DNA of 47,574 nucleotides from a virus. The position numbers and the translations under genes are program-made. Of the stretch, positions 4,652-46,659 are shown piece by piece. The stretch covers positions 1 through 47,574 of the IMG/VR virus record IMGVR_UViG_3300049793_000168, one strand, 5' to 3'. The stretch's first letter is position 1. Every line of letters starts with the position of its first letter. The notes below the pieces were generated by a model. The model worked only from the letters and a program-made list of their open reading frames with translations, had not been told where the DNA came from and did no database searches.

Positions 4652-4727
4652 GGGGTGGATGGCAAGCAGGCCGGTCGCCGCCCTAGCCCGCGAGGGGGTG
4701 GCGACACCAAACGGGGGCTCGAACCTG

Positions 4728-4733
4728 TACGCT
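4728..4733 (+). promoter_or_regulatory. CGAAC-N3-TACGCT promoter before portal
   Basis: CGAAC at 4720-4724, three bases, then TACGCT. The nearest in-frame start is TTG 4743, nine bases downstream. An exact match to the recurring motif. Confidence 0.5.
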
Positions 4734-6543: not shown

Positions 6544-6557
6544 CGCGCTCGAACTGT

Positions 6558-6563
6558 TAGCCT
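6558..6563 (+). promoter_or_regulatory. CGAAC-N3-TAGCCT promoter for scaffold gene
   Basis: CGAAC 6550-6554, three bases, TAGCCT 6558-6563, six bases, ATG 6570. No Shine-Dalgarno site. Confidence 0.65.
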
Positions 6564-7142: not shown

Positions 7143-7177
7143 GGTGTGCTAGTTACGGCTTGACGGGCGTGAACAAG

Positions 7178-7203
7178 CAGGGCTCCCTTTGCAGGGGGCC
7201 CTG
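7178..7203 (+). terminator. Hairpin terminator between scaffold and capsid genes
   Basis: Arms CAGGGCTCCC (7178-7187) and GGGGGCCCTG (7194-7203) pair over 10 bp with one G-T wobble around a 6-nt loop, followed by TTT. It ends six bases before the capsid -10 element, insulating the capsid gene from upstream transcripts. Confidence 0.7.
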
Positions 7204-7208
7204 TTTGC

Positions 7209-7214
7209 TATAGT
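7209..7214 (+). promoter_or_regulatory. -10 element TATAGT of major capsid gene
   Basis: TATAGT ends seven bases before ATG 7222 and directly follows the terminator. It is the closest to the consensus TATAAT in the window, fitting a highly expressed gene. No SD site and no CGAAC upstream. Confidence 0.6.
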
Positions 7215-8187: not shown

Positions 8188-8209
8188 GCAAGCTCCCTCG
8201 GGACGGGGA

Positions 8210-8237
8210 CGAGAGGCCTCCTTCGGGGGGCCTCTCG
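8210..8237 (+). terminator. Strong TTCG-loop terminator after capsid gene
   Basis: Twelve-base arms CGAGAGGCCTCC (8210-8221) and GGGGGCCTCTCG (8226-8237) pair with one wobble around a TTCG tetraloop. There is no U tract. The right arm runs into the CGAAC of the next promoter, sharing bases. Confidence 0.75.
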
Positions 8238-8243
8238 AACGTC

Positions 8244-8249
8244 TAGGCT
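8244..8249 (+). promoter_or_regulatory. CGAAC-N3-TAGGCT promoter for embedded glycosyltransferase
   Basis: CGAAC 8236-8240, three bases, TAGGCT 8244-8249, six bases, GTG 8256. The first two bases of CGAAC are the end of the terminator stem. Confidence 0.65.
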
Positions 8250-8255
8250 TAGGGG

Positions 8256-9140
8256 GTGGCATTCGACCCCGTTGTCTGGTTCATCACCCCGGTGCATCGG
8301 CGCCATTTTCTGACGATGATCTGCCTGGAGCAAAGGAAGCGGATGATCGATGCGCTGCCATTCGAGGCGCACGCCGTGATCGTCGGGGACGACCCTCAGA
8401 TACTGCACGTCGCAGCACAGCACGGATTCGACACAGTCGAGATGAACAACCGGTGGGTCGGCGCGAAGTTCAACGCCGGATACCGACACGCAGTCGAGAA
8501 CGGCGCGACTCACTGCATGCCGATCGGATCAGACTCGTGGCTTCACCCTGACGCGCTTAGGGACGCCCCCTGGACGGAGAAGGGGGCGTTCTCGAGCGTC
8601 GGGCTGAGCTCCGTCTCTGCTGACGGACTCCAGCGCATGGACATGACCATCAGGTACCCCGCGGGCTTCGGCGTCGGCATGTTCTACCCCGCCTGGTGCC
8701 TCGGCGACGAGCCAAGCGATCCCAGGAAGCAGCGCGGCATCGACACATCGACGTGGGAGCGCTGCGGTAAGGGGCGCCTGCGCATGACGTTCCTCGATCT
8801 GGTCCCCTTCTCGTACGTCAACTTCCACTCTCCCGACGTTCAGATCACCGACTGGAAGCGCCTGCTCGCGGGCCACCACATGCGCAGCGGGTTCAAGCGC
8901 GACCGCGGCCTCGACGCCCTGCGCGATGTGTATGACGCCGACCTGCTAGCCGCGATCGAGGGCTACTACTCCGCGCACAGCATCGGCATCTTCCTCACCG
9001 GCAAGCGCCCGGAGATCGAATCCACGCAAGCCACCCCAAATGTCAGTGGGGTCACACTGCAGCGCGCCCGTCGCTTGAGCGGCAACCCGGCCCTCAATCG
9101 CCTCGAGGATCTCTCGGAAGAGTTCCGCGCACTCCTCTAG
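8256..9140 (+). CDS. Glycosyltransferase, GT-A fold (family 2-like), between capsid and connector
   Basis: 294 residues from GTG 8256. TPVHRRHFLTMICLEQR starts a Rossmann-like GT-A domain, VIVGDDPQI gives the nucleotide-sugar strand, and PIGSDSWLHPD (89-99) is the DxD-type metal motif. It likely moves a sugar onto an unknown acceptor. Sitting between the capsid and neck genes with its own promoter suggests a virion protein as acceptor. That target is inference; host glycan modification is the alternative. Confidence 0.75.
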   Translation: MAFDPVVWFITPVHRRHFLTMICLEQRKRMIDALPFEAHAVIVGDDPQILHVAAQHGFDTVEMNNRWVGAKFNAGYRHAVENGATHCMPIGSDSWLHPDALRDAPWTEKGAFSSVGLSSVSADGLQRMDMTIRYPAGFGVGMFYPAWCLGDEPSDPRKQRGIDTSTWERCGKGRLRMTFLDLVPFSYVNFHSPDVQITDWKRLLAGHHMRSGFKRDRGLDALRDVYDADLLAAIEGYYSAHSIGIFLTGKRPEIESTQATPNVSGVTLQRARRLSGNPALNRLEDLSEEFRALL

Positions 9141-9165: not shown

Positions 9166-9516
9166 GTGACTGCCGAAGAGAAGCTGGTTTCATGGTCTGG
9201 CGGGGATCTAGAGCCCCTGCTCTCCGCTGACGAGCTCGCTCAGTGCCTGCTCGACGCCGCAGTCCCCGATTCGGCGGGTCTGTACGTCAACGACGACGCC
9301 TGGGTCCCGTCCTACGACTTCCATCGGGCGGCCGCTGCGGCCTGGCGCACCAAAGCGGCGAAGGTCGCGGCCGATTACTCGATCGTCATCGAGGGGCGCG
9401 AGATCAACCGCGGCCAGATGGTCGACAACTTCCTCAAGATGGCTGCCGAGCACGATTCCAAGTCCCAGCCTCGCTACATGGCGGCTCCGGACAGCGTAGA
9501 GCCGTGGAGGATCTGA
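9166..9516 (+). CDS. Head-tail connector (putative, adaptor position)
   Basis: 116 residues from GTG 9166. The fold looks helical, with YDFHRAAAAAWRTKAAKVA near residues 46-64, as in gp6/gp15-type adaptors that bind the portal. The role is inferred from being the first small gene after capsid and portal; sequence alone is weak. Confidence 0.6.
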   Translation: MTAEEKLVSWSGGDLEPLLSADELAQCLLDAAVPDSAGLYVNDDAWVPSYDFHRAAAAAWRTKAAKVAADYSIVIEGREINRGQMVDNFLKMAAEHDSKSQPRYMAAPDSVEPWRI

Positions 9517-12921: not shown

Positions 12922-12934
12922 ACACTCGAACAGC

Positions 12935-12940
12935 TAGTCT
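12935..12940 (+). promoter_or_regulatory. CGAAC-N3-TAGTCT promoter for tail chaperone
   Basis: CGAAC 12927-12931, three bases, TAGTCT 12935-12940, six bases, ATG 12947. Confidence 0.65.
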
Positions 12941-12946
12941 CTGTGC

Positions 12947-13288
12947 ATGCAGATCGCACAGATGACCAAGCAGGAGAAGGTCACGCTCGACTTCTCGTCG
13001 CAGTTCCCCGACACACCTCCCGAGGAGGCCACGCTTAACGTCACCTTCGATCCGTCGAAGATGACCGCGGCTCGTTCGAACGAGATCGAGGCCAAAGGCG
13101 ACAGCCTGGAAGTTCTGGTCGACGCCGTCCTCGACTTGGTGAGCGAGTGGGACCTGATGGACGGGAAGAAGGTCGTGCCTCTCACCCACGCCAGCCTCAT
13201 GAACACGCCTTCGATCGTCCTCGGACTGGTCCTCTCAGGGGTCAGCGAACAGGTCGCGAAGAAGGCCGAGGCTGAGGGAAAAGCCTAG
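12947..13288 (+). CDS. Tail assembly chaperone, short form (G)
   Basis: 113 residues, acidic, just before the tape measure gene. It would coat and guide the tape measure during tail assembly. Just before its stop lies GGGAAAA (13276-13282) in the phase X XXY YYZ for -1 slippage, which adds the extension listed next. The two-product arrangement matches the lambda G/GT system. Confidence 0.82.
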   Translation: MQIAQMTKQEKVTLDFSSQFPDTPPEEATLNVTFDPSKMTAARSNEIEAKGDSLEVLVDAVLDLVSEWDLMDGKKVVPLTHASLMNTPSIVLGLVLSGVSEQVAKKAEAEGKA

Positions 13289-13512: not shown

Positions 13513-15861
13513 GTGATCGAAGTCGCCCATATTGTCGCGCGAGTAACGACCGATCTCACACGCTTCAACACCGGAATGGCCGCCGCGGAAGCGCGCGCGA
13601 CCACGACCGCCGAGAAGATGAGCGTGTCGGGAATGCGCATGACCAAGTACCTGTCGTTGCCGCTCGCGGCAATCGGGTACAGCGCCGTGAAGTCGAGCAT
13701 CCATTTCTCGGATGCCATGGCTCAGATCCGGACGCAGACCGGCGCCTCGCGGAAGGAAATGGAGTACTACCAGAAGGCCATCATGAAGCTCGCCCCGAGC
13801 ACCACGCAGGGGCCCGAGGAGCTCGCGAAGGGCCTGTACCACCTCCGGTCGGTCGGCCTCAAGGGCAAAGAGGCGATGGACGCCCTCAAGTACTCGGCGC
13901 AGGCCTCGCAGATGGGCTTCGCAGACCTCGAAGACACCACCTCCGTGCTCGCGGGCACCATGCGCGTGCTCCACCTCCCCATGAGCAAGCTCAAGGACAC
14001 CATGGCGGCCATGCACGCCGCTGTCGGTACCGGCAACATGCGCCTCGAGGACCTGAACCGCGCCCTCGGCACCGGCGTCCTGGCGACGGCCCACCTCGCT
14101 CACCTGGGGCTGCGCGACGTCACTGCCTCCATGGCGGTGTTCACGGATGAGAACCAGAACGCCGCCTCGTCCATGACGCGAATGCGGACCGCCCTGATGA
14201 TGATGCTGCACCCGTCGGAGAAGGCTGCCGGGAACATGAATATGCTCGGATTCAACGCACAGCAGCTTGGCGTGAAGATCCAGACCGGAGCTCACGGGTG
14301 GGAGGACGCGATCGCCTTCATCGACAAGCGCCGCAAGCAGTTCATCAAGATGGCGCAGCAGGGCAAGGGATTCGACGGCGACAAGATCATCAAGATCCCG
14401 AAGATGACGCTGAAAGAGGCCAGGACGGCCTCGTTCGCGAACCTCGCGGGCGCGTTCGGCGGGTCGAAGACCGCGTCGCAGATCATGCTGCTGATCAACA
14501 ACTCGGACATGCTCCGGAAGAAGTGGGTCCAGAACCGCCAGGTCGAGAAGCATTGGGATCAGCAGCTTGCCGACTCGAACAAGACACTGGGCGCGCAGCT
14601 TCGCAAGGCCTGGTCGAGCATCCGCGTCGGACTGATCCAGCTTGGTGACGCGATGGCACCGACTGTGGTCGCGTTTGCCAAGGGGATCGCGCTGCTAGCT
14701 CTCGGGTTCTCTAAGCTCCCGGGGCCGGTCAAGAAGTTCGTCGGGGCGCTGGTGTTCATGCTGATCCTGCTCGGCCCCATGCTCATCGTTGGCTCGAGCC
14801 TGTCCAAGATGTGGAAGGGCTACGCCGAGTCCACTAAGCTCGCTGCCGCCGGTCAGTGGATGTTGAACGCCGCGACGGCCTCATTCCCGCTCACCGCGAT
14901 CGTGCTGCTGATCGCGATCATCGTGATCGCCATGTGGAAGTCGAAGCGCTTCCGCGAGTTCATGATCAAGGTCTTCCGCGACGTCTGGGACTTCATCAAG
15001 AAAGCCGTCAGCGGGATCTGGTCATTCGTGAAGCAGTACTGGCCCTACATCATCGGCGCCATGCTCGGCCCCATCGGGCTCGCGGCCGCCTGGATCTACC
15101 GCCACTGGCACACGATCGTGAGTGCCTTCCACTCCGGGGTGAACGCCGTGGTCGGGTTCCTCAAGGCCAACTGGCCGTACATCGTCGGCGCGATGCTCGG
15201 CCCCTTCGGGCTGATCGCGGCCGGGATCTACAAGCACTTCGGCGCGATCAAAGCGTTCATCGTGCGCATCTCGCTCGACATTTTGAACTTCATTAAGGGC
15301 ACGTGGAGTAAGTTCGCAGGGATCATCGCATCCTTCGGCGTGCGGATCTACAGCGGCGCGACCGGAGTGTGGCACCGGATCTGGAACTACCTCAAGGGTC
15401 TCGCGGGGCGCCTCGGATCCGCTGTCAAGAACGCCATGCTCGCGATCGTGCGCTGGATCAAGGCTGCAGCGATTTGGGCGTACACGGCTTCCAAGCACCT
15501 CGGCACCCGGATCAAGGACGGCGTGGTCGACGGCATGAAGGGGATGGCCGGTGACATCGCCAAGGGGATCGGCGGCGGGCTCCTAAGCGCGATCCCGGGT
15601 GGCAAGGAACTCAAGAAGGGCGTACACGCTCTGATCCACCACAGGGCTACCGGCGGGCCCGTCAACTACGGCATGCCCTACGTCGTCGGCGAGCGCGGGC
15701 CCGAGTGGTTTACGCCGACGCAGAGCGGACGGATCGCGCCGAACGGCCAGGAAAAGCCCGGTCGAACGGCTAGTGTTCACGTCGAGAACATGAACGTGCG
15801 AGCGACCGACGACATCTACTCCATCGCAAGCGTTCTCGCTCGAAAGGTGGCCCTCGCATGA
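13513..15861 (+). CDS. Tape measure protein
   Basis: 782 residues from GTG 13513. The N-terminal 230 residues match phage tape measure domains (YQKAIMKLAPSTTQGPEELA, MGFADLEDTTSVLAGTM). The middle has long hydrophobic helices, including two near-repeats with YIVGAMLGP-type sequence (about 513-570). The C-terminus ends in GGPVNYGMPYVVGERGPEWF, common in these proteins. It sets tail length and leaves the tail at infection. No lysozyme or peptidase domain is seen. Confidence 0.93.
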   Translation: MIEVAHIVARVTTDLTRFNTGMAAAEARATTTAEKMSVSGMRMTKYLSLPLAAIGYSAVKSSIHFSDAMAQIRTQTGASRKEMEYYQKAIMKLAPSTTQGPEELAKGLYHLRSVGLKGKEAMDALKYSAQASQMGFADLEDTTSVLAGTMRVLHLPMSKLKDTMAAMHAAVGTGNMRLEDLNRALGTGVLATAHLAHLGLRDVTASMAVFTDENQNAASSMTRMRTALMMMLHPSEKAAGNMNMLGFNAQQLGVKIQTGAHGWEDAIAFIDKRRKQFIKMAQQGKGFDGDKIIKIPKMTLKEARTASFANLAGAFGGSKTASQIMLLINNSDMLRKKWVQNRQVEKHWDQQLADSNKTLGAQLRKAWSSIRVGLIQLGDAMAPTVVAFAKGIALLALGFSKLPGPVKKFVGALVFMLILLGPMLIVGSSLSKMWKGYAESTKLAAAGQWMLNAATASFPLTAIVLLIAIIVIAMWKSKRFREFMIKVFRDVWDFIKKAVSGIWSFVKQYWPYIIGAMLGPIGLAAAWIYRHWHTIVSAFHSGVNAVVGFLKANWPYIVGAMLGPFGLIAAGIYKHFGAIKAFIVRISLDILNFIKGTWSKFAGIIASFGVRIYSGATGVWHRIWNYLKGLAGRLGSAVKNAMLAIVRWIKAAAIWAYTASKHLGTRIKDGVVDGMKGMAGDIAKGIGGGLLSAIPGGKELKKGVHALIHHRATGGPVNYGMPYVVGERGPEWFTPTQSGRIAPNGQEKPGRTASVHVENMNVRATDDIYSIASVLARKVALA

Positions 15862-20882: not shown

Positions 20883-21628
20883 TGGCTGGCAACGTCATGT
20901 ACGCAAGGGCGATCGATCGTTACCCGCTCCTGCCGACCACACTGGCTCACCTGGCATTCGCTCAGCTGAGCGTCAGCGCGGCTTCCGATCTATGGGTCAC
21001 GACTCGCCTCGCCTTCTCGACTGCTGGCATAGCCCACTGGTCCAGCACCCCCACCCCCGACTCGGGGTACTTCGTTGCCATGACCGGCGGCGGGAGCATT
21101 CTGAGTGGAGTCACCCTGCTGAACGGCGCGGTGTGGCAGGACATCACGCTGGCGAGCACCGAAAACCAGGCCACTCCCACCCCCGTAGCCCACAAGTGGT
21201 TCACGCTCGAGCAGCGCCACCACAACAACGTCAGCCGCTACGGTGCTGTCCAGTGCGTCAACGACTGGAACGGAAACGCCTTCAACAAGAACATCACCGC
21301 GATAAACATAGGCCAGTGGAACGCCCTGAACGTGGTTGTCGACCCGACCTCTGGACGCTTCTACGACGTGTACATCGACAGGGTGTGGATCGGCACCACT
21401 CGCAGAGGGCACGACATCCTGAAAGAAGAATGGGACACCGGCGATTTCAGCAATTGGGGATTCCACAACGCCTGGGACGACACGTTCGGTACGGGGTGCA
21501 AGATCATCCCCGACCCAGGGTACTCTAGCTTCAACTACGTGTGCGACGCGTTCGGGGAAAACGGGCTACGGTCGGCGCCGCTGCGCGTCCCCGTCAACAA
21601 CGTCGGCATTCCGATCCCTCGGGGCTAG
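20882..21628 (+). CDS. Terminal tail fibre/tip protein (putative)
   Basis: 248 residues from ATG 20882 in an overlap with the previous stop. The pattern of strands, with WFTLEQRHHNNVSRYGAVQC and VVVDPTSGRFYDVYIDRVW, suggests a concanavalin/laminin-like jelly roll, a fold often used for glycan binding. It is the last rightward structural gene. Its final 63 nt overlap the convergent glycosyltransferase gene. Confidence 0.6.
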   Translation: MAGNVMYARAIDRYPLLPTTLAHLAFAQLSVSAASDLWVTTRLAFSTAGIAHWSSTPTPDSGYFVAMTGGGSILSGVTLLNGAVWQDITLASTENQATPTPVAHKWFTLEQRHHNNVSRYGAVQCVNDWNGNAFNKNITAINIGQWNALNVVVDPTSGRFYDVYIDRVWIGTTRRGHDILKEEWDTGDFSNWGFHNAWDDTFGTGCKIIPDPGYSSFNYVCDAFGENGLRSAPLRVPVNNVGIPIPRG

Positions 21629-22741
21629 CTCGCCCCACCCCAGGCCCCACAGTCCCCGCAGCTGTCCGAACCAGCGATCGAATTGAGGCTTGACAGCCTT
21701 GAGCTCGTACTTGCGATTCGCACAACGCGCTATGGAAGCTGGCTTGAGGCTCGAGAGCTTGTCGACCGCGTCGACGCCCTCCTGGAGCGTGTTGAAGCGG
21801 AAGCCAGTCTTGCCATGCTCAATCGTCTCGACGAAGGCTCCCCAATCGGTAGAGAGCACCGGCGTGCCGCACATCATCGCCTCGACGGCCACGCCGCCGA
21901 ACGGCTCGACGTAGAGCGTCGGGCAGACCAGGGCCTTAGCCGCGGCCATGAGTTGCGCTCGCTCGTCGGGGTTGACGGTGCCCGCGTATACGAGCCCCTT
22001 GTACTCGAGCCTAATGTCGTCGCCCTCGATGAAGCCGGGGCCAGAGTCCTTGACACCCGGGCCCGCGATGACAAGCTTCATCTTGCATGCCTTGGCGAGC
22101 TCCACGGCCTCCCTGACTCCCTTGCGCTCGATGACGCGGCCCACGTAGAGTAGGAAGTCACCGTCCCCGCTGTTCAGGTACGGGAAATCGCGCTTGTCGA
22201 AGAAGTTGGGGATCGTGGTGTCGTACCAACGGCCCTGCCGCCACCCGTTGAGACCGTAGACGTGGTTGCGCCACGCATGGCTCTCGAAGGCGCAGTAGCC
22301 GGTGAAGATGCCCTCGTAGCCGACGAACGGCTCGCAGATCACGACGTCGTTCTCGTGAAAAGCTCTCACACCGGCCTCGAGGGGCAGGAACGGGTTTCCG
22401 TTGCTCAGCAAGACGATGTCGCCCTTCGCGCGCTGGATGAGCTCGGCGGCCGCGCGCTGGTTCCAGAGGCGCCAGGGCTGCTGTGAGCGGTCCCAGGTCA
22501 CCTTCTCGAACAGGGCCTCGGTTCCCCACTCTCCGAAGAACGCGTGACGCTCTGCCTCCCTCATGAGAACGATGTGCTCGTCGCACGGCGCGTCGTTGAG
22601 CTCGCTGCCGTAGAGGTAGATCTGGACGTTCTTGTCGCCCTCGTACATCCGGCAGAACTTGACGACCTTCTGCGTGTACGCGCACGTCAGGTACTCGTCC
22701 GTCGTGGCCGTCCAGGGGAGGCCGACGAGATGGAGCTTCAT
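21566..22741 (-). CDS. Glycosyltransferase, GT-B fold (GT4-like)
   Basis: 391 residues from ATG 22741. FLLYVGRVIERKGVREAVELAK opens the C-terminal Rossmann domain, and EPFGGVAVEAMMCGTPVLS is the GT4 E-x7-E motif that binds the nucleotide sugar. The N-terminal domain is shorter than usual. Acceptor unknown. It is the last gene of the leftward operon, coupled to the MazG-like gene by ATGA, and its end overlaps the tail-fibre gene. Confidence 0.82.
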   Translation of the reverse strand: MKLHLVGLPWTATTDEYLTCAYTQKVVKFCRMYEGDKNVQIYLYGSELNDAPCDEHIVLMREAERHAFFGEWGTEALFEKVTWDRSQQPWRLWNQRAAAELIQRAKGDIVLLSNGNPFLPLEAGVRAFHENDVVICEPFVGYEGIFTGYCAFESHAWRNHVYGLNGWRQGRWYDTTIPNFFDKRDFPYLNSGDGDFLLYVGRVIERKGVREAVELAKACKMKLVIAGPGVKDSGPGFIEGDDIRLEYKGLVYAGTVNPDERAQLMAAAKALVCPTLYVEPFGGVAVEAMMCGTPVLSTDWGAFVETIEHGKTGFRFNTLQEGVDAVDKLSSLKPASIARCANRKYELKAVKPQFDRWFGQLRGLWGLGWGELAPRDRNADVVDGDAQRRRP

Positions 22742-26774: not shown

Positions 26775-26950
26775 CTGACAGCCTCCAGGCGGTCGTACAG
26801 GGCGCGGTCGTCGTGCTCCAAGGACTCGTACCCCTCGTCACCGACGAGTAGCTCCTGCATACGGCGCGCCTCGCCCTTCGTGAGAAGGACAGCGCGGCGC
26901 GTGAGGCCGGGGATCTGGTGGGATGGGGAGGACTTGGGACGGTCGTTCAA
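26771..26950 (-). CDS. Small hypothetical protein
   Basis: 59 residues from TTG 26950, in a TTGA overlap with the sigma-like gene stop. It is helical and charged (LTKGEARRMQELLVGDEGYE). It follows the sigma-like gene directly and could modulate it, but that is only position. Unknown. Confidence 0.5.
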   Translation of the reverse strand: MNDRPKSSPSHQIPGLTRRAVLLTKGEARRMQELLVGDEGYESLEHDDRALYDRLEAVR

Positions 26951-27747
26951 GTGAGGATTCCTTTCCGGAAGCCGATCGCGATCGCGTGGACGATGTTCTT
27001 CGCACCCAGGGTCTTGATCACCTGTTTGCGGTACGTCTTGACGGATTCTACACCTATTCCGAGGTGCTTTCCAGTCTCGTCGGAGCTCAGCCCCTCTGCG
27101 GCCAGCGAGAGGACTTCCTGCTGCCTCCGGGGAATCGGCGGCCCCGCTGGGCGGGCTACGTCCTCTGTGAGCTCGGACATGCTGAGCATCTTGTCCCTGA
27201 CCTTGCAGAGAGCTCGCTGTTTGACCTTGTCGACGTACTGCGTCGTGCAACCCATTCTCTCCGCGGTGACCGAGACCAACTCATCGGCCACGTAGTACAG
27301 GAACAGGACGTTGTTCTCGAGCGGGGTGAGGCCGCTGGAAGAGATCACCCCTCGAAGGAATTCACGATCGTCTGTCGTGGCCTCCGGCGCTTCGAGCATG
27401 TCTATGAGCTCCGTTTCCATGTCGCCGCCGGGGACGATCTTGTTGAGAGACGACACCTCCGGCCGCCTCTCCCCCGACGCATCTTCCCCTGGGCGAAGAA
27501 CCTGGCGCTCGTAGGGCCCGAACTTGCGAAGGTGCTCCCTGATCTCGCAGTTCATCAGCCACTTGCACCAGCCGCGTATGCCGCGGTCTGACTTGCTTGG
27601 ATCGTAGTCGTTAACCGCCTTGACGAGGCCCAGGCGAGCCACCTGGGCCATGTCCTCCTGCTCGATGTTGGTCCCGCGGACCGCGCGAGCGGCCCACGAG
27701 TCAGCGAGCGGCAGGAGCTCGTCGTACACGCGGTCCGCTTCGGTCAC
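26947..27747 (-). CDS. Sigma-70-like factor fused to a LuxR-type helix-turn-helix
   Basis: 266 residues from GTG 27747. Residues about 17-78 are sigma region 2 (EDMAQVARLGLVKAVNDYDP, then WCKWLMNCEIREHLRKFG). Residues about 138-186 are region 4 (LTPLENNVLFLYYVADEL, then CTTQYVDKVKQRALCKVRDKM-type recognition helix). Region 3 is replaced by a loop. Residues 205-266 are a GerE/LuxR domain (QQEVLSLAAEGLSSDETGKH, SVKTYRKQVIKTLGA). A sigma factor ending in a LuxR domain is unusual. It may direct host RNA polymerase to phage promoters. Confidence 0.78.
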   Translation of the reverse strand: MTEADRVYDELLPLADSWAARAVRGTNIEQEDMAQVARLGLVKAVNDYDPSKSDRGIRGWCKWLMNCEIREHLRKFGPYERQVLRPGEDASGERRPEVSSLNKIVPGGDMETELIDMLEAPEATTDDREFLRGVISSSGLTPLENNVLFLYYVADELVSVTAERMGCTTQYVDKVKQRALCKVRDKMLSMSELTEDVARPAGPPIPRRQQEVLSLAAEGLSSDETGKHLGIGVESVKTYRKQVIKTLGAKNIVHAIAIGFRKGILT

Positions 27748-28277
27748 TGGACCTTGGCGTTCAGGAGCTCGGTCGCGGCCTCGGCTAGGTTCGCCTGGAT
27801 GTCCGGGAGCAGATTGTGACTGAGACCGGCAGCGCCCAGTTGTTCCTCGAGATCGTTCACGAGGACGTGGGCGATCCTCAACGAGTTGGCCGCGCGCTGG
27901 AGGTTCTCCGTCGTGACGATCTCTTCGTCAGAGTCGATCATGGTCTCGGACGTTTCGATCTTCGCCGGGAGATCCGTGTCGTCGGGAGTCACGGTCGGGT
28001 CGCTCCCCGGGGCCACGGCCTCGGACTTGGCGACATCCTCCGAGGGCGCGAGCTCGTCCGGCGGCTCGATCTCGTACATCTTCTGGATGTACACGCGGCC
28101 GTCGCGCTTGTCGAGTTGCACCCCGACCGGGTTGGGGTTCGGAGACTTCAAGATGAGCTCTGCGAGATCGCCGATCGCGTCGTCGCGCGTCCCGGCGACG
28201 GTGCCGCCGAGGAAGGTGATCTTGTGGGCGCCCGAGGGGGTCTTCTCGTAGGCCTCGATCGTCGTGACTGTGTCCAC
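27744..28277 (-). CDS. Acidic hypothetical protein
   Basis: 177 residues from GTG 28277. An N-terminal globular part (about 1-70) is followed by an acidic low-complexity linker (PPDELAPSEDVAKSEAVAP) and a helical C-terminus. It overlaps the sigma-like gene start in GTGA. No homologue recognised; an anti-sigma or partner role is only suggested by position. Confidence 0.5.
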   Translation of the reverse strand: MDTVTTIEAYEKTPSGAHKITFLGGTVAGTRDDAIGDLAELILKSPNPNPVGVQLDKRDGRVYIQKMYEIEPPDELAPSEDVAKSEAVAPGSDPTVTPDDTDLPAKIETSETMIDSDEEIVTTENLQRAANSLRIAHVLVNDLEEQLGAAGLSHNLLPDIQANLAEAATELLNAKVQ

Positions 28278-31501: not shown

Positions 31502-31641
31502 GCGGACAGAAGATCCCTGCGCACTTGGTGGAGGTTACCCTGCGCTCGAGACGCTAGCGGCGCCTCCCGCATTACCCGGGGTGCGACCCGGCTCACCAAA
31601 CAGGGATCTTCTCTCCGCACGAACATCTACACTGCACCGTA
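31502..31641. promoter_or_regulatory. Divergent intergenic region with 18-bp inverted repeat
   Basis: GCGGACAGAAGATCCCTG (31502-31519) and its inverted copy (31601-31618) match at 17 of 18 bases. Inside them TTGGTG (31525-31530) mirrors CACCAA (31594-31599). The right half leads into CGAAC (31620-31624), three bases, TACACT (31628-31633) and, eight bases later, ATG 31642. The repeats may be operator sites or hairpin arms. Confidence 0.6.
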
Positions 31642-33614: not shown

Positions 33615-34249
33615 GTCACATCCTCTTCGGCAAAACCGAGGCGTTCCTTGAACCATCGCAGCCCCGGGGTGCCGGAGTCGTGGCGGTTGTAGAATACGTA
33701 TCCGGTCCCGCACACTAGTTGGTCGCGCACGAGCTCGCGCATTGCCAGGTACATGATCCCGTCGTTGAGGTACTCGCCGTGCCCCAAGAGCATTGAGATC
33801 ACCACGACCTCTCCACAGCGGACGGCGCTGATGTACCCGACGAGCGCGTTGAACGCAGACAGCACCCCGTAGAAGGCTCGGTGGTGCTGTGGGCACTGTG
33901 GGTCGCCGATCAGGCTGGTCGCTGGCTTCCAGCCGTCCGTGTACGAGTCGGACATCGGGCGTCCCTGCCTCGAGCCCAGGGACCTGTTGATCGCCTCGAT
34001 GTCTCCGGGGTAGTGCGCGGGCTCGACTCGCTCGACGCGGTAGCCGATGCGCTTTGCCTTGTTCGCGCGCTTGCGCAACGTGTTGTGGTTGGTGAGCCAG
34101 GCGTTCTCGAAGCCGTGGTAGTTCGGAAGCTTGAGAATCGAGACCCCCTTGCCGTACTCGGGCTGGTTGAGCTCGCCGTACTGCGCGCGCGCCAGGTCGT
34201 AGCACTCATCGAAGCAGGTCTCGTAGACCCCCAGGTAGATATCGATCAC
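33602..34249 (-). CDS. Acyltransferase-like protein (GNAT/FemAB type, putative)
   Basis: 215 residues from GTG 34249 (GTGA overlap). NTLRKRANKAKRIGYRVERV, then ALVGYISAVRCGEVVVISML and YLNDGIMYLAMRELV, recall GNAT-fold FemAB-like enzymes that add amino acids or acetyl groups to wall or sugar targets. It sits between the phosphatase and the deacetylase. The call is from fold-like pattern only. Confidence 0.5.
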   Translation of the reverse strand: MIDIYLGVYETCFDECYDLARAQYGELNQPEYGKGVSILKLPNYHGFENAWLTNHNTLRKRANKAKRIGYRVERVEPAHYPGDIEAINRSLGSRQGRPMSDSYTDGWKPATSLIGDPQCPQHHRAFYGVLSAFNALVGYISAVRCGEVVVISMLLGHGEYLNDGIMYLAMRELVRDQLVCGTGYVFYNRHDSGTPGLRWFKERLGFAEEDVTWKL

Positions 34250-34743
34250 TCGCGCTCCCGGAGCCAGTCCTCGAAGGCGGGGTTGCACAGGACCGCGGGC
34301 GAGCGCTTGTCGCGCAGCGTCTCTATCGCTCGGTCGGCGCTCCACCCGTCCAACATGAGGGTGCGCGCGGCGACAAGGCTCGAGCGATTCAGTCCCGCCT
34401 GGCAATGGACGAGGGTCGGGCCCTGGTGCATGCAGCCGAGCACCCACTCGGCGACACTCTCCACTTCGCCCATCTCCTGGTCAAGGCTGTCGTAGAGGCG
34501 TACGTAGAGCTCGCTCTTGAGCTCGTGCATTATCGTGTACCTCTCCCAGGGGTACAGGCTGACCAGGTGGTCGATGTTGTTCGGCAGGATCAGGCCGTTC
34601 GCGCAGCCACCCGTCCAGAGGTTCTCGGTGATCTGAGAGATGAACGGCACGTCGAATGGAACGTTGCCGTGCCTGGCGACGCCCTCCATCCTCGCCCGCG
34701 TCGGGTCGAACGTGATGTCGATGCGGGTTGGGTCTGAGCTCAT
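34246..34743 (-). CDS. Dual-specificity/tyrosine phosphatase-like protein
   Basis: 165 residues. HCQAGLNRSS (113-122) is the Cys-x5-Arg loop with catalytic Cys114 and Arg120; YDSLDQEM near 84 likely gives the general acid Asp. It removes phosphate from protein or another phosphoester. It lies between the primase-helicase and the glycan genes, coupled to each by 4-nt overlap. Confidence 0.85.
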   Translation of the reverse strand: MSSDPTRIDITFDPTRARMEGVARHGNVPFDVPFISQITENLWTGGCANGLILPNNIDHLVSLYPWERYTIMHELKSELYVRLYDSLDQEMGEVESVAEWVLGCMHQGPTLVHCQAGLNRSSLVAARTLMLDGWSADRAIETLRDKRSPAVLCNPAFEDWLRERE

Positions 34744-37639: not shown

Positions 37640-37667
37640 AGTGTAGCTGTTCTATCGGGGCGTTCAA
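37640..37667 (-). promoter_or_regulatory. Leftward promoter TTGAAC-N16-TACACT
   Basis: On the minus strand TTGAAC (37667-37662), 16 bases, TACACT (37645-37640). This is the clearest -35/-10 pair in the window. AGAAC also lies three bases before TACACT. It likely drives the OB-like gene and the primase-helicase operon. Confidence 0.65.
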
Positions 37668-37671
37668 CTGG

Positions 37672-37677
37672 TATCTT
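37672..37677 (+). promoter_or_regulatory. -10 element TATCTT, divergent to the leftward promoter
   Basis: TATCTT, six bases, ATG 37684. TCAAC lies three bases upstream and is the reverse of the -35 TTGAAC of the leftward promoter, so the two promoters share bases. Confidence 0.5.
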
Positions 37678-37683
37678 TAACGT

Positions 37684-37956
37684 ATGCCGACTCGCGCGGG
37701 ACAGCGGAAGAAGAGCAAGACTGGCCGCTGCTCGCCCGCGGAGCACAAGGCGCTGGCGAGCCACCGGAAGGCCGAGGCCAAGTACGTGCGCAAGAACAAG
37801 CAGAAGCACGGAGCGGCCGCTCGAGCCTACTACCACAAGAACAAGGCCAAGATCCGAGCTCAGCGCCGCCTCGCCAAGACTGCTAAGCACAAGGCCATCG
37901 TGGCAGCGCGTCGACGCGCGTACGGGGGCAACCGCGGAAGGCCCAGGACCTGTTGA
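37684..37956 (+). CDS. Small very basic protein
   Basis: 90 residues, Lys/Arg/Ala-rich (KYVRKNKQKHGAAARAYYHK, AKIRAQRRLAKTAKHKA). It resembles the basic lead segment of phage recombination endonuclease VII genes without the nuclease core. Nucleic-acid binding is likely. It is transcribed away from the primase operon. Confidence 0.55.
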   Translation: MPTRAGQRKKSKTGRCSPAEHKALASHRKAEAKYVRKNKQKHGAAARAYYHKNKAKIRAQRRLAKTAKHKAIVAARRRAYGGNRGRPRTC

Positions 37957-39399: not shown

Positions 39400-39725
39400 T
39401 GGGCGCCGTATGGGGTAACTATGGCGCGGCCGATCCCCCCGGCTATCATTTCGACGCGTTCACGTGGCGCAACGATCCGCCGACCGATGAGGGGTTGGGC
39501 GAGTCGCAAGGGATGGCCGCGATGGCCGCGGCACGCGCGGCGCAACAAGCCAACGCGCAGAGCCATGACGTGCAGCTGTGCGCCTTCGCGTGTCTCACGT
39601 GCGGGTACGTGGACGGCCGAACACAGGCGGGCGCGCTGACGTGCCACGATTGCGCGCAGGATGAGAACCCCCTAAATGGGGGATACGGCGGCAACCTCGA
39701 ACAGACGAAAGGGATGGAGCTATGA
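39399..39725 (+). CDS. Zinc-ribbon hypothetical protein
   Basis: 108 residues from GTG 39399. An aromatic N-terminus (YHFDAFTWRNDPP), an Ala-rich helix and CLTCGYVDG...LTCHDC form a probable zinc ribbon. It overlaps rIIA by 4 nt (ATGA). A CCCCC/GGGGG mini-hairpin lies inside its 3' part. Confidence 0.55.
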   Translation: MGAVWGNYGAADPPGYHFDAFTWRNDPPTDEGLGESQGMAAMAAARAAQQANAQSHDVQLCAFACLTCGYVDGRTQAGALTCHDCAQDENPLNGGYGGNLEQTKGMEL

Positions 39726-41674
39726 AAGTTGAAGCGCGAGTCAGAGAGTACTCCTCGAATGTAGCGGGCGAGCGCATCGGCATGTCAATCGACGAGTCGA
39801 GTCTGTCTCACATTATGTCTGTGCTGACAGACCTCTACTCCGATCCTGAGATGGCAGTCATTCGCGAGTACTCCACGAATGCGCTAGACGCGCACGTGGA
39901 CGCGGGCGAGACTCGCCCTATCGAGGTGACTCTACCGACGCCACTGAGCCCGTTTTTCAAGGTTCGCGACTATGGCGCGGGGTTGAGCGCCGAGGATATC
40001 CGCGACACGTTCTCCCGCTATGGGACGAGTACGAAGCGGGAGTCTAATGACGTGGTCGGAATGCTCGGACTCGGTTGCAAATCTGCTCTCACGTACGCCG
40101 ATCAGTTCACACTGACGGCGACGAAGGACGGCCGCACGGTTCAAGTCCTGGTGTCGCGGGACGAGGACGGCGCCGGAAGCATGACAGTGGTTTCCGACTC
40201 CCCCGCGGGGGACGCGCCTAGCGGCGTGGAAATCATCGTCCCGGCAAAGCGGCACAACGCGTTTGAATCTAAGGCGCATTCGTTTTTTCGATTTTGGGAC
40301 GCTGAAACGGTGCTGGTTAATGGGACGCATCCCGAGCGGATTGACGGGTTCTGGATAACGGACACGCTGCTACTGACTCAGGAATGCGATCGCGACATGG
40401 TTGTTATGGGAAACGTCGCTTACCCGTCCCTGTCAGACGTGGCGCTTAGCCCGACTACCCGATGGCACGCGGTCGCGTTCGTGGAAATCGGGGCGGTTGC
40501 TTTCACTCCCTCGCGCGAATCTCTGCAGGCGACGAAAAAGACACGCGAGGCTTTGGCTGCAATTCGGGACGAAATCGCGAGGGAGCGAGACCGCGCCCTG
40601 CGCGAGCAAATCAGCGACGCAAAAAATGCAGACGAGGCGGTCGCTCTGCGGGTAAAGGCCTCGTCCATAGGATTCCAGGGCGATGCCATGTACCAGGGTC
40701 GCATTGTGCCGCAAAAGTTGGATCGAACGCCGCGAGACCAAAGCGGGAATTTCTTGCGCACGCAGGACGCCGGTGTCTCTGACACGTTTCTGCGCGGAGG
40801 GGGGACGTATGAAAAGGCTAAGGGGGTGCGAGACTTTTCGATCCCGATTCTTGACAACACCCCCCGCGTTTTGTTCGAGGGGTTCGAGTCTCGCGAAATG
40901 TCACCCACAAAGAGAGACAAGCTCGCCGAATGGTTTAGGCGCCGCGGCGAAAATCCTGCGCCGTATGTACTCGTCGACAAGTTGCGCCCCGCGGAGCGAT
41001 TTTGGCTTGAAGGTCGCGACGTCCACCAATGGTCGGACGTGGACGCAATCAAGCTCGAACGCGCCGAACGCGTGGACGCGTATGGCAAGCCGCGAGGGTC
41101 TTACGATTGCATTGAGCCGGGGGGTAGGTGGGGGACGATTAATGCGGAAGAAATCTGCACGTCGCGCCCCGTCTACTGGATGCACGGCAACGTGAGCGAA
41201 CTGCGCGGATCTTCCGCGCGGAAGGTTCTCTCGCCCGATGGGACGTTTGTTGCGCTCCCTGGAAACAGAATCGAAAAGTTTCAACGCGATTTTCCCGAGG
41301 CGATTGAAATCACAACGGCGGCCAAACAGACCGCGGAAAGGTGGCTAAAGGGACAGAGCAAAAAAGACATAGACGCGTACGTCGCGCGGAGGGATTCTGA
41401 ATATGCGGTAATCGCCAAGTTGGATCCCGCGAAGATCGAGGATCCCGCGTTGAGGGATGCAATCCGCGTCGCTCGTCGCGACATAGGCGCGTTCGTGCAG
41501 CAGCTGCAGGAATTCTTTGCGTGGATTCCTTCTCTAGATGAGCGGTCGCTAGGTGGCCCGCTCAAGCATTATCCGTTGCTTGTCGATAGGTACCTAAATC
41601 TTCAAGCGCACGAGGCTCATGTCTATCTGTATATCAACGCCGCATTCGCGGCAAGGAAGGAAGTGACGAAATGA
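39722..41674 (+). CDS. rIIA: RIIA-like GHKL ATPase
   Basis: 650 residues with a strong SD (AAAGGGATGGAG). EYSTNALDA (49-57) is the N-box, DYGAGLS (83-89) and GMLGLGCKS (113-121) the G1 and G2 motifs of the GHKL fold. The layout matches T4 RIIA-type proteins, which are membrane-associated and help the phage withstand host exclusion systems. It overlaps rIIB in ATGA. Shorter than T4 RIIA (725). Codons are less biased than in the structural genes. Confidence 0.85.
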   Translation: MKVEARVREYSSNVAGERIGMSIDESSLSHIMSVLTDLYSDPEMAVIREYSTNALDAHVDAGETRPIEVTLPTPLSPFFKVRDYGAGLSAEDIRDTFSRYGTSTKRESNDVVGMLGLGCKSALTYADQFTLTATKDGRTVQVLVSRDEDGAGSMTVVSDSPAGDAPSGVEIIVPAKRHNAFESKAHSFFRFWDAETVLVNGTHPERIDGFWITDTLLLTQECDRDMVVMGNVAYPSLSDVALSPTTRWHAVAFVEIGAVAFTPSRESLQATKKTREALAAIRDEIARERDRALREQISDAKNADEAVALRVKASSIGFQGDAMYQGRIVPQKLDRTPRDQSGNFLRTQDAGVSDTFLRGGGTYEKAKGVRDFSIPILDNTPRVLFEGFESREMSPTKRDKLAEWFRRRGENPAPYVLVDKLRPAERFWLEGRDVHQWSDVDAIKLERAERVDAYGKPRGSYDCIEPGGRWGTINAEEICTSRPVYWMHGNVSELRGSSARKVLSPDGTFVALPGNRIEKFQRDFPEAIEITTAAKQTAERWLKGQSKKDIDAYVARRDSEYAVIAKLDPAKIEDPALRDAIRVARRDIGAFVQQLQEFFAWIPSLDERSLGGPLKHYPLLVDRYLNLQAHEAHVYLYINAAFAARKEVTK

Positions 41675-42492
41675 TTAGCTACACGATGGTAGGGGACGGC
41701 GACGAAAGCAACATCGTGGTTTTCGGCGAAGGTCGAACGCGCATCGCCCATTCGTCTCATCCGCGGTTCGACGAAATCGTCCGGGGCGCGATCGCAGGCG
41801 ACGAGTCGGTCCTCGATCTGTTCGACTTGGCAGACTCCGCAGTGAAGCATTTCGATCGACTATCGGAGCGAGTCACCACGGCGCACGGTCGCCTCTACTT
41901 GGACGGTGAGGAAATCGACAACGCGTTGACGGCGCAGGTACTCCGATTCTTGGACGAGGGAGTAGACGACTGGCGCCCCCTCGTCGCCTTTTTCGACAAC
42001 GTGCAGGCGAACCCGTCCGAGCATTCCCGCACACAGCTGTATTCGTGGCTGGCCGCGGATGACTTCACAATCACCCAGGACGGACTCATCGTCGGATACA
42101 AGGGCGTTGCGAAGGACGAAGGCGGCGCCCTGGTGTCTGTCAATTCGGGCCGTGCGATCGTAGACGGCGAGGTGTACAAGGGCGCGATCCCGAATCACCT
42201 CGGCGCCGTCGTCGAAATGCCGCGCGGCGAGGTGACGTTTGACCCGGGCGTAGGGTGTTCGACCGGGTTGCACGTCGGGACGTACGCCTACGCCGAGGGA
42301 TGGGCGCAAGGCGCCCTGCTAGAGGTACACGTGAACCCCCGCGACGTTGTCTCCGTCCCCACTGACTGCGACGCCGCGAAGATGCGCACGTGTCGGTATG
42401 TCGTGGTCAAGACAATCGACGCAAAACACACGGCGCCGGTAGCGTTCGACTTCGGCGACGAAGATCCTGATTCATGGGGAGATTGCGAGTAA
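41671..42492 (+). CDS. rIIB: RIIB-like protein
   Basis: 273 residues. The central part with YSWLAADDFTITQDGLIVGYK, then CSTGLHVGTYAYAEGW and VHVNPRDVVSVPTDCDAAKM, is the RIIB signature. By analogy with T4 it works with RIIA at the membrane. It is directly coupled to rIIA. A hairpin terminator follows it. Confidence 0.88.
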   Translation: MISYTMVGDGDESNIVVFGEGRTRIAHSSHPRFDEIVRGAIAGDESVLDLFDLADSAVKHFDRLSERVTTAHGRLYLDGEEIDNALTAQVLRFLDEGVDDWRPLVAFFDNVQANPSEHSRTQLYSWLAADDFTITQDGLIVGYKGVAKDEGGALVSVNSGRAIVDGEVYKGAIPNHLGAVVEMPRGEVTFDPGVGCSTGLHVGTYAYAEGWAQGALLEVHVNPRDVVSVPTDCDAAKMRTCRYVVVKTIDAKHTAPVAFDFGDEDPDSWGDCE

Positions 42493-42506
42493 TAGCCCGC
42501 GGTCAA

Positions 42507-42536
42507 GAGCGAGGGACGTTTGCGCGTCCCTCGCTC
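42507..42536 (+). terminator. Hairpin terminator after rIIB
   Basis: Exact 12-bp arms GAGCGAGGGACG (42507-42518) and CGTCCCTCGCTC (42525-42536) around a 6-nt loop. No U tract. The next gene has its own SD site, so this may be an attenuator or RNA end. Confidence 0.7.
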
Positions 42537-42561
42537 CCCACACTTCAAACGAAAGGGACGA

Positions 42562-42729
42562 ATGAACAAGGGTTGCTATGTAGTGGTCTTTTACGGCGAG
42601 GACGAAGGCGCCGCGCCTGTTTCGTGCTATGGCCCGTATCTTACGCGGGAAATTGCCGAGCAGGCAGGCGAGAGACTTTACCCCCGCTACGGCGAATATG
42701 GCGTGGTTTTGTGGATGGGGAAGGTATGA
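42562..42729 (+). CDS. Small hypothetical protein
   Basis: 55 residues from ATG 42562 with AAAGGGA five bases before. The alpha/beta pattern (GCYVVVFYGEDEG, then LTREIAEQAGERLYP) is neat but unrecognised. Its stop overlaps the next start. Confidence 0.6.
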   Translation: MNKGCYVVVFYGEDEGAAPVSCYGPYLTREIAEQAGERLYPRYGEYGVVLWMGKV

Positions 42730-43499
42730 GCCTACTTACGATAGGCAACCCCAAGACTCTCAGGGGCGAGAAACGCGGTTACCGTACGGCGATTCTCCAC
42801 CTTGCGCCTCACAAGCTCTCAGGGTTCAACGTCTGTCCCTCCGCAACGGAAGGATGCGCCGCGGCTTGTCTCAACACCGCGGGCCGCGGGGGGATGGGGA
42901 CGGGCGCGCTGGCGGGCGATGAGCTCGCGAATGCTAACGCGATTCAGAGAGCTCGCGTGCGGCGAACCCTCGAGTACTTCAATGATCGGCCCGCGTTCGT
43001 CGCAACGCTTGCGCATGAAATCGGTCTGTTCGTCAAGCGGTGCGAGCGGGACGGATTCGTCCCTTGCGTTCGTCTGAATGGGACGAGCGATCTTCGATGG
43101 GAGACAACCCCCGCGGGGGACGCGCCGTCCCTCATGGCGGTTTATCCCTCCCTGCAATTCTACGATTACACGAAGCTGGCGAACCGCAAACACCTCCCCC
43201 CTAACTATCACTTGACCTACTCGCTAGCGGAGGGGGCGAGAAACGAGAAGGGCGCGGCGGTTGCGCTCGCTAACGGAATGAGTGTCGCCGTGGTACTTCG
43301 CGGGTGCGGTGACTCCGCGCACCCAAAGCCATTCCCTCGCTACTGGCGCGGGCGCCCGTTGGTCGATGGCGACGAGTCAGACCTACGCTTCCTCGATCCG
43401 CGCGGCGTTTACGTCGGGCTAAGGGCGAAGGGACGAGCAAAGCACGATGCGTCCGGGTTCGTTCGTAACGCGTTCGAGGCGCCCCCGTGTTGCGTCTAG
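42726..43499 (+). CDS. Conserved phage protein (DUF7227-like)
   Basis: 257 residues from ATG 42726. GFNVCPSATEGCAAACLNTA (38-57) with four Cys, VRLNGTSDLRWE, LQFYDYTKLANR and DLRFLDPRGVYVGL form the core of a family found in many phages. Its activity is not established; the Cys cluster could bind iron-sulphur or zinc. Its end overlaps the next gene. Confidence 0.75.
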   Translation: MSLLTIGNPKTLRGEKRGYRTAILHLAPHKLSGFNVCPSATEGCAAACLNTAGRGGMGTGALAGDELANANAIQRARVRRTLEYFNDRPAFVATLAHEIGLFVKRCERDGFVPCVRLNGTSDLRWETTPAGDAPSLMAVYPSLQFYDYTKLANRKHLPPNYHLTYSLAEGARNEKGAAVALANGMSVAVVLRGCGDSAHPKPFPRYWRGRPLVDGDESDLRFLDPRGVYVGLRAKGRAKHDASGFVRNAFEAPPCCV

Positions 43500-43828
43500 G
43501 AATCGTCCTGGCAGGCGCCTGCGCCTTCGCGATGTTCCCCGAAGTGATGGGATACGGTCTTGCGTTCGCGGCCGTTAGCATCGCTCTGGTGGTCGCGGCG
43601 CGTCTGGCGTTCGGGCCGATGTCCGGGGGCGCGGAAGTGTCGGACGATCCTATGCAGGCGGCCGATGGAGACTGGATCCCCTGCAGAAATCCGCAGTGCC
43701 TAGCTCCGGTCTTGCGTTCGTCGCGAAAGGCGTACTGCTCGCCCGGATGCAAGGACGCGGTTAGGCGACTGAAACTCCGCGATGCAGCTGACGAATACGA
43801 CCCCGCGAATGGCGAAATCCCCTTTTAG
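43487..43828 (+). CDS. Membrane-anchored Cys-motif protein
   Basis: 113 residues from GTG 43487. Residues about 3-42 are hydrophobic (GIVLAGACAFAMFPEVMGYG, LAFAAVSIALVVAARLAFG), one or two membrane spans. PCRNPQCLAP then YCSPGCKDAVRRLK (about 65-97) is a zinc-finger-like tail. The stop sits within a CCCC/GGGGG mini-hairpin. Confidence 0.55.
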   Translation: MLRLGIVLAGACAFAMFPEVMGYGLAFAAVSIALVVAARLAFGPMSGGAEVSDDPMQAADGDWIPCRNPQCLAPVLRSSRKAYCSPGCKDAVRRLKLRDAADEYDPANGEIPF

Positions 43829-43832
43829 GGGG
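43819..43832 (+). repeat. Stop-codon mini-hairpin CCCC-TTTTA-GGGGG
   Basis: Four to five-base arms around a loop carrying the TAG stop, followed by GATGCAGCT. The same GATGCAGCT tail follows the copy at 45017-45029. Confidence 0.5.
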
Positions 43833-43891
43833 ATGCAGCTATGGCGGGCGCATCCGACAATCGTTTTATGACACCGACGAAAGGGGACACA

Positions 43892-44743
43892 ATGAAAGCA
43901 TGGCGAAACGTTCTACTGCGGTTCGGCGTCGTGGCGATTCCGGTCGGAATCTCTCCGGCCAAGTCCGACAAGCCGAGCATTTCCGCGCATCGGTTCGCGA
44001 ATGGCGAACGAGCGCGGCAGGCGTGGACGATCGACGGCGAAAGCATCGTGGAAACGTCCTTGCTTTATGACGTGGACGGCGCCGCGGTGGAAATCGACGC
44101 GCCGCGGGTTGGAAACGATGGGCGAGTCTTGGAGGGTAGCGAGTCCGACGATCCCTCCGAAATCGTCCTATCGGCGTGGACGGAGTCGGCGGCCATCGAC
44201 CCCCTACTTTATGACGCGTCGTATTGCGTCATGGCAGGCAAGGGCGGCGCCGATGGAATGGGACTCGTGGCGAAGATTCTCCGCGACGATCCCTCCCGCG
44301 TTCTGGCGGGAGTCGCGCGGTTCACGGATCGACCCCGCTCCGTGGTTCTCCGATGGAGCGAGGCGGCCGGTAGCGTCGTTCTGCATACCCTCACGTATGC
44401 GGCGCGGGTTCGGTTCGAGGGGATGCGAAAGGCGAGCGAGTCTTTCGCCGATCCCTCCCCCGAACTAGAGGCGCAAGCCGCGCTGTTCACCGCGTCGCTT
44501 CCCTCGGCGTTTACCCCCCTGGATAGCGACCCCCTTGAGGCGGCCGTTATCAATGCCCTACGTGAAGTCTGCCCCTCGGCACAGCTGGCAGAGGTGCCTA
44601 CGACGGCCGCGGATATCCTCGCAACGTTGCGCGCTGACGTAGCAGAGAAGGGCGCGGCCACGAAGGGCGCCACGAAGGGGACGAAGTCTGCAAGCAAGGG
44701 CGGCAAGCCCGCCGCAACCCGGGGGGTGGTCGCTACGAAGTAA
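43892..44743 (+). CDS. Ku-like DNA end-binding protein
   Basis: 283 residues from ATG 43892, with AAAGGGG before it; ATG 43841 is an upstream option without SD. LLRFGVVAIPVGISPA opens the Ku core, IDPLLYDASYCVMAGKGG (about 98-115) and SVVLHTLTYAARVRF are its central blocks. Residues from about 250 are Lys/Ala/Thr-rich (GAATKGATKGTKSASKGGK), like mycobacterial Ku tails. It would bind double-strand ends as a ring and recruit host ligase, possibly to circularise phage DNA. No ligase gene is seen. Confidence 0.8.
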   Translation: MKAWRNVLLRFGVVAIPVGISPAKSDKPSISAHRFANGERARQAWTIDGESIVETSLLYDVDGAAVEIDAPRVGNDGRVLEGSESDDPSEIVLSAWTESAAIDPLLYDASYCVMAGKGGADGMGLVAKILRDDPSRVLAGVARFTDRPRSVVLRWSEAAGSVVLHTLTYAARVRFEGMRKASESFADPSPELEAQAALFTASLPSAFTPLDSDPLEAAVINALREVCPSAQLAEVPTTAADILATLRADVAEKGAATKGATKGTKSASKGGKPAATRGVVATK

Positions 44744-46284: not shown

Positions 46285-46659
46285 ATGCCGGGACGCCCCC
46301 TCAAGAGAGCCGCCTTCTTGACCTCAGACAGCGACGAAATCGAGGCGTTCTGCCAGGCGGCCTTCATGCCGAGCTTCAAGTTCGAGGGGCTCGAGTGGGC
46401 AGACGAGCATCCCGGCCCGGAGGTCAAGACCCGCACCCCCCCGCTCGAGCTAGAGGATCCCCCGGAGGTCGACGTCTCTGTGTGGGCGAATCTCGAGGGC
46501 CCCATGGTCCGAGTCGCGTGCGTGAAGTGCGGCCAGGAGAAGGACGCCTGGGTCGACGAGCACGGCTTTCTTGAGGACGAGCGAGACATGTGGCACGTCC
46601 ACGAGGGCGACAACGCGTACCCCACGGCCCCGATCGGTGAGAGTGATGACCCTTCGTGA
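46285..46659 (+). CDS. Acidic hypothetical protein
   Basis: 124 residues from ATG 46285. The first half is mixed; DAWVDEHGFLEDERDMWHVHE near 98-118 and VACVKCGQEK give a possible metal site. Unknown role. Confidence 0.55.
   Translation: MPGRPLKRAAFLTSDSDEIEAFCQAAFMPSFKFEGLEWADEHPGPEVKTRTPPLELEDPPEVDVSVWANLEGPMVRVACVKCGQEKDAWVDEHGFLEDERDMWHVHEGDNAYPTAPIGESDDPS

Follow-up and report, generated by a model that had tools for sequence, protein, structure and literature searches.

A phage sigma factor variant with a LuxR-type DNA-binding domain and a candidate promoter class marked by a CGAAC box

A viral DNA of 47,574 nt (IMG/VR record IMGVR_UViG_3300049793_000168, positions 1 to 47,574, the whole of which we term the window) encodes a sigma factor variant, P0001, which lacks region 3 and carries an added LuxR-type DNA-binding domain, and the same window contains a class of promoters in which a CGAAC box stands beside the -10 element. 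What has been observed by computation is the domain composition of P0001, its lack of region 3, the existence of the promoter class and the near-confinement of that class to this phage. That the variant, with its LuxR domain as a reader, serves the CGAAC promoters is a proposal to which we attach about as much belief as doubt; of the single explanations of the data, this link between P0001 and the promoters is the likeliest, and we infer it from one genome, since the data contain no relative in which fusion and box occur together.

The gene for P0001 occupies positions 26947-27747 on the minus strand (stop codon 26947-26949), where the first-pass annotation had placed it, and encodes 266 aa from a GTG start with no internal stop. 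The GC content at third codon positions is 0.73-0.88 in each segment and, because this codon pattern runs unbroken across all domains, P0001 is to be regarded as one gene. On the minus strand, the sequence successively specifies sigma-70 region 2 (27523-27726, residues 8-75; Pfam PF04542 Sigma70_r2, 30.7 bits, cut-off 24), a linker resembling region 3.2, the sigma finger, in the SigF-family alignment only (27382-27453, residues 99-122; SLNKIVPGGDMETELIDMLEAPEA), sigma-70 region 4 (27196-27333, residues 139-184; PF04545 Sigma70_r4, 29.9 bits in the whole protein, cut-off 24.1) and a GerE/LuxR helix-turn-helix followed by a fourth helix (26950-27132, residues 206-266; PF00196). The NCBIfam sigma-70 family model TIGR02937 matches end to end over residues 5-187 (69.7 bits, cut-off 42.9) and PHROG 351, 'RNA polymerase sigma factor', matches with an E value of 3.8e-18. 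With regions 2 and 4 in order and the family model above its curated cut-off, P0001 belongs by sequence to the sigma-70 family; equally, with Pfam GerE above its cut-off of 23.5 (35.3 bits over residues 207-256 of the whole protein, 38.4 bits for the C-terminal fragment alone) and both the helix-turn-helix and the fourth helix present, its C-terminal part counts as a LuxR/GerE domain. The clear region 2 and the complete GerE helix-turn-helix that had been noticed at first sight are thereby borne out. The description of region 4 as equally clear was somewhat too strong, for although the region is present in the whole protein, the fragment 126-195 alone yields a Sigma70_r4 score of only 19.1 bits, below the cut-off; being marginal in Pfam on its own, region 4 is assigned from the full-length models and the alignment.

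The kinship of the sigma part lies with the actinobacterial SigB/SigF/SigG family. After TIGR02937 this is the best subfamily (TIGR02980, 54.9 bits against a cut-off of 234.35), region 2 is about 42% identical to a Rhodococcus member of the family, and region 2, the 3.2-like linker and region 4 align with the family along residues 5-189. In the alignment, made with 18 SigF-type proteins from Streptomyces, Mycobacterium, Mycolicibacterium and Rhodococcus, the first helix-turn-helix of P0001 occupies the place of region 4 and keeps the usual conserved residues, while about 45 aa of region 3 are missing, regions 3.0-3.1 being deleted just before the 3.2-like linker. Pfam detects region 3 in the two SigF-type proteins checked (E 4e-10 and 7e-11) and not in P0001. 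Judged by sequence, P0001 is thus related to, but placed outside, the SigB/SigF/SigG group 3, having no region 3 and a TIGR02980 score below the cut-off. It shares the sigma2-sigma4 architecture with the ECF factors (group 4), among which it is not to be counted, since Pfam Sigma70_ECF gives an E value of only 0.13 and the best subfamily is SigB/F/G.

An AlphaFold2 model built with the SigF alignment (an earlier model made without an alignment was poor) has pLDDT values of about 88-97 in most of region 2, mostly 80-91 in region 4 and 72-87 in the first GerE helices. The four GerE helices are placed at residues 207-217, 222-229, 233-247 and 249-265, the last with low confidence, and the linker, with a pLDDT of about 30, carries no structural confidence. 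Foldseek matches of the model comprise the structures of WhiG, sigma-28, SigB, SigA and SigL together with many phage sigma factors; the overall TM-scores are low because the domain positions are free. The predicted fold is that of a sigma factor, which answers the structural objection that the first-pass annotation had raised against itself, and the presence of a second DNA-reading module within one sigma factor, its central suggestion, draws support from Pfam, TIGR02937 and the structure model alike.

The minus-strand genes around P0001 encode an exonuclease, a DNA polymerase exonuclease-like protein, a primase/helicase and the phosphatase, and the plus-strand left part of the window encodes the terminase, portal, scaffold, major capsid, tape measure and holin; from this gene content P0001 lies in what looks like an early/middle block, with the structural genes on the opposite strand. 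Directly upstream, at 27744-28277 on the minus strand, is the gene for an acidic protein of 177 aa without known family, which overlaps the P0001 start by 4 nt and, being translationally coupled to the sigma gene, is a possible partner or anti-sigma factor. P0001 is the sole recognisable transcription factor among the window proteins scanned, many window ORFs having no known family. An internal ATG at residue 187 of P0001 (27189, minus strand), preceded by AGGG, could yield a free LuxR domain of 80 aa.

The pattern CGAAC-N3-TANNNT has seven exact sites in the window as against 0.46 expected, all on the plus strand, with CGAAC starting at 2650, 4720, 6550, 8236, 12927, 15763 and 31620; a spacing of 3 is seen seven times, whereas none of the other spacings between 0 and 29 exceeds two occurrences, and the promoter motif noted at the outset is real. 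Six of the seven fall within the head/packaging/tail region, and the class consensus is TCGAAC-N3-TANNCT. At four sites the start codon lies exactly 20 nt from the first C of CGAAC: TCGAAC-TCG-TATGCT (2649-2663, terminase small subunit at 2670), TCGAAC-TGT-TAGCCT (6549-6563, scaffolding protein at 6570), TCGAAC-GTC-TAGGCT (8235-8249, just after a hairpin, GTG at 8256) and TCGAAC-AGC-TAGTCT (12926-12940, ATG at 12947 of the gene before the tape measure). This fixed distance implies leaderless transcripts in which the first T of TANNNT is -12, the start codon is +1 and the TCGAAC box extends from -21 to -16. Of the remaining sites, TCGAAC-CTG-TACGCT (4719-4733) precedes a small ORF ahead of the portal gene and has no ATG or GTG at +1, TCGAAC-GGC-TAGTGT (15762-15776) lies within the terminal part of the tape measure gene, 82 nt ahead of the gene that follows (15858), and ACGAAC-ATC-TACACT (31619-31633) is followed by ATG 31642, the start of a plus-strand ORF of 81 aa in the minus-strand early block.

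In the columns upstream of the box, conservation across the seven sites never goes beyond 5/7 G or C, which argues that these promoters have neither a -35 element nor a further upstream operator, in keeping with the suggestion that they work without a normal -35. The GTTCGA half-site at N4 spacing, the sole dyad form looked for, is absent at the boxes. A reading of CGAAC itself as an ordinary -35 was rejected, as the corresponding -10 would land inside genes, where only the start codon is conserved. Terminator-like hairpins on the plus strand (8195-8249 and 7175-7210) directly precede the leaderless promoters at 8236 and 7222, from which it appears that transcription units are packed end to end.

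Leaderless initiation in the window extends beyond the box class. TANNNT stands exactly six bases before ATG or GTG at 16 ORFs and seven bases before it at 9, other spacings occurring at most 5 times, and these 25 ORFs with leaderless-type starts are mostly on the plus strand between 1 and 21000, with others at 46285 and 46791. The promoters of the major capsid (7222), holin (11073) and tape measure (13513) genes, and those at 9166, 18731 and 46285, have TANNNT without the box. The early notion of a takeover factor was accordingly too broad, and what stands of it is that the fusion would be required by one class of genes at most. The box-less -10 has the form TANA(A/G)T, and the fourth -10 base is A in 1/7 box promoters as against 7/9 box-less leaderless promoters (Fisher p 0.04, post hoc); different -10 elements are as expected if a different sigma factor reads the box class. 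A minus-strand site at 37640 was discarded as a leaderless start, its ATG being out of frame; it is an early promoter with a leader, reads TTGAAC-N16-TACACT, has an AAAGGGG ribosome site and resembles a normal host sigma promoter, and divergent early promoters overlap at 37640-37684.

The host is most likely an actinobacterium, to judge from the relatives of the phosphatase and rIIB genes together with the frequent leaderless starts. Within the annotated phages, those of Mycobacterium, Gordonia and Rhodococcus are the only ones with relatives of the tyrosine/dual-specificity phosphatase (34246-34743, minus strand; best about 62%), rIIB is nearest to that of Streptomyces phages of about 127 kb (60%), and leaderless starts are common in actinobacteria (for mycobacteria, see PMC4633059). 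Elsewhere in the window, a run of genes at 39722-44743 on the plus strand encodes an rIIA-like protein, the rIIB-like protein, the conserved phrog_1617 protein of unknown function and a Ku-like protein, and the late region ends with a glycosyltransferase (phrog_3408; 21566-22741, minus strand).

The box class is all but restricted to the phage of the window. The 24-nt form TCGAAC-N3-TANNCT-N6-RTG has 4 copies in the 47.6 kb window and 14 in total in 396 Actinomycetota genomes, at most one per genome, the reversed control pattern giving 4. A stricter pattern in IMG/VR viral contigs was found in 30 contigs with one copy each, coding or chance and without real recurrence, and actinophage-like relatives of the phosphatase and rIIB genes have neither the box class nor the fusion; the box is thus not a general actinobacterial promoter element. 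A particular, unsampled host possibly also uses it. Two apparent recurrences were rejected: an apparent double match in one record (G064) proved to be no relative, and a 159-kb record (G513) has four matches, two of them in tRNA T-loop-like antisense and none with a start codon at the right distance.

On the proposed mechanism, an actinobacterial SigB/F/G-type factor would have lost region 3 and gained a C-terminal LuxR-type DNA-binding domain. The fusion would bind the host core RNA polymerase, region 2 would melt the TANNCT -10, the short 3.2 linker would sit in the active-site channel and GerE, or less probably sigma4, would recognise the TCGAAC box between -21 and -16, such that the polymerase could start leaderless packaging, scaffold and tail transcripts without a -35. 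Region 3 of sigma factors normally contacts the DNA just upstream of the -10, which is where the new box lies; this coincidence between the lost module and the box is suggestive support for the link and not proof of it. A more specific version, which we put forward tentatively, is that the LuxR domain takes over the spacer reading of the lost region 3, the -10 and CGAAC together defining the promoter in a built-in form of 'sigma adaptation'. Against the proposed mechanism stand the GerE tether of about 20 residues with the box near -18, whereas sigma4 of the normal holoenzyme sits near -35, and the resemblance of the box to a single half-site, whereas LuxR domains usually bind dyads as dimers. 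Further, about half of the late leaderless promoters (major capsid, tape measure, holin) have no box, and the box reader could be some window ORF without known family.

The most probable of the alternatives is one that we consider unlikely though deserving of serious attention: the host SigA polymerase would read the CGAAC promoters together with a separate spacer-binding activator of PafBC-like kind, of phage or host origin, and the fusion would serve other promoters. TANNNT and leaderless starts are typical of SigA in mycobacteria, and the many window ORFs without known family leave room for an activator. Spacer-bound activators that replace the -35 contact do exist in actinobacteria (PMC11804915). 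Yet no activator-like protein is recognised among the proteins scanned, the -10 of the box class departs from the TANA(A/G)T of the box-less promoters, the PafBC element lies at -26 and not at -18, and the box class hardly occurs in actinobacterial genomes.

Somewhat less probable is that P0001 is a working sigma factor whose GerE domain binds another operator, dimerises or autoinhibits, in the manner of the regulatory C-terminal extensions of some ECF factors. At least 26 ECF groups include factors with a regulatory extension at the N- or C-terminus (PMC8999054), and the internal ATG at residue 187 with its AGGG could provide free GerE. However, the box promoters show no conserved operator besides the box, and the extensions described (SnoaL, TPR, WD40, Cys-rich and anti-sigma-like; PMC8999054) include none that is DNA-binding.

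The C-terminal domain might also be a second sigma-4-like helix-turn-helix, in which case P0001 would be a phage sigma factor of the ordinary kind whose region 4 is duplicated, and the CGAAC motif would be unrelated to it. We judge this improbable. The fragment 196-266 alone does pass Sigma70_r4_2 (26.6 bits, cut-off 25.7), GerE and sigma4 being related folds, but it scores 38.4 bits with GerE over 50/57 positions, the fourth helix is present, and its phmmer matches among PDB sequences are DesR, EsrB, RhlR and other LuxR/NarL proteins almost throughout, the single sigma match reaching 8.8 bits. From these LuxR/NarL matches and the SigF alignment we take the domain order to be sigma4 followed by GerE. 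That the boxes are LexA (SOS box) half-sites or other host repressor sites is very improbable: the actinobacterial SOS box tCGAAC-N4-GNNCGa does have TCGAAC as its left half (PMC9380542), but LexA boxes were rejected, as the right half-site is absent at 7/7 sites (1-2/6 matches) and an SOS box does not include TANNNT at a constant distance of N3.

In sigma factors generally, region 4 reads the -35 and region 2 the -10, the helping activators being separate proteins. Compared with the SigB/SigF/SigG family, whose region 2, 3.2-like linker and region 4 are alignable to it, P0001 is distinguished by the absence of region 3 and the added LuxR domain. With LuxR/NarL proteins such as DesR and EsrB it shares a complete four-helix C-terminal domain, but where these have a receiver or ligand-binding partner P0001 has a sigma factor. 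SPO1 gp28 and gp33-34 and T4 gp55 are likewise products of early/middle-block phage genes that direct the host polymerase, as P0001 could do; SPO1 promoters have -35 boxes, however, while the candidate class of P0001 has none, and T4 late promoters consist of a -10 only, but require gp33 and gp45. We know of no added LuxR domain in these phage factors. The nearest known logic is the PafBC sigma adaptation of mycobacteria, where a box between -35 and -10 likewise replaces the -35, a separate activator reading a -26 motif and standing in for the -35 contact (PMC11804915). PafBC itself is a WYL-domain protein that works alongside SigA as a separate activator, whereas here the candidate reader is inside the sigma factor; with the box at -21 to -16 and no WYL domain among the proteins scanned with Pfam, the system is not of the PafBC type. 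ECF factors with extensions combine sigma2-sigma4 with an extra C-terminal domain, as does P0001 (PMC8999054), but their extensions are regulatory (SnoaL, TPR, Cys-rich, WD40) and not DNA-binding, and the sigma part of P0001 is SigB/F/G-like rather than ECF. What is new, then, is a phage sigma factor variant with a LuxR domain, sigma factors with C-terminal regulatory extensions being already known (PMC8999054). If the proposed mechanism is true, it would show the rewiring of a sigma factor to a new promoter grammar by one gene, and the factor and its promoter would make a compact testable pair, possibly an orthogonal transcription tool for actinobacteria.

Non-exhaustive searches of phages, plasmids, viral contigs and the 396 Actinomycetota genomes gave no second sigma-LuxR fusion. 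IMG/VR and GTDB contigs, scanned with single-protein patterns, gave no relative; tblastn against INPHARED and PLSDB gave sigma or LuxR matches separately and never joined; and the 396 genomes, with six candidates scored per genome, gave LuxR-domain matches only. Alignment scans with the terminase found distant records without the fusion (best 44% among the matches listed), those with the phosphatase and rIIB turned up relatives resembling actinophages (best identities 69% and 60%), with the fusion in 0/50 records searched, and those with SigF found 80 host SigF loci without the fusion and nothing in viral contigs. No paper on phage sigma-LuxR fusions was found, a weak result, as subscription journals were thinly covered. 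The parts for a fusion were available, since a sigma protein of 192 aa (in record L303) and a LuxR protein of 83 aa (in record L302) stand separately in some actinophage-like relatives. The latter, a stand-alone GerE-like protein at 1462-1713 of its record, comes right after an ORF that by eye looks like a terminase.
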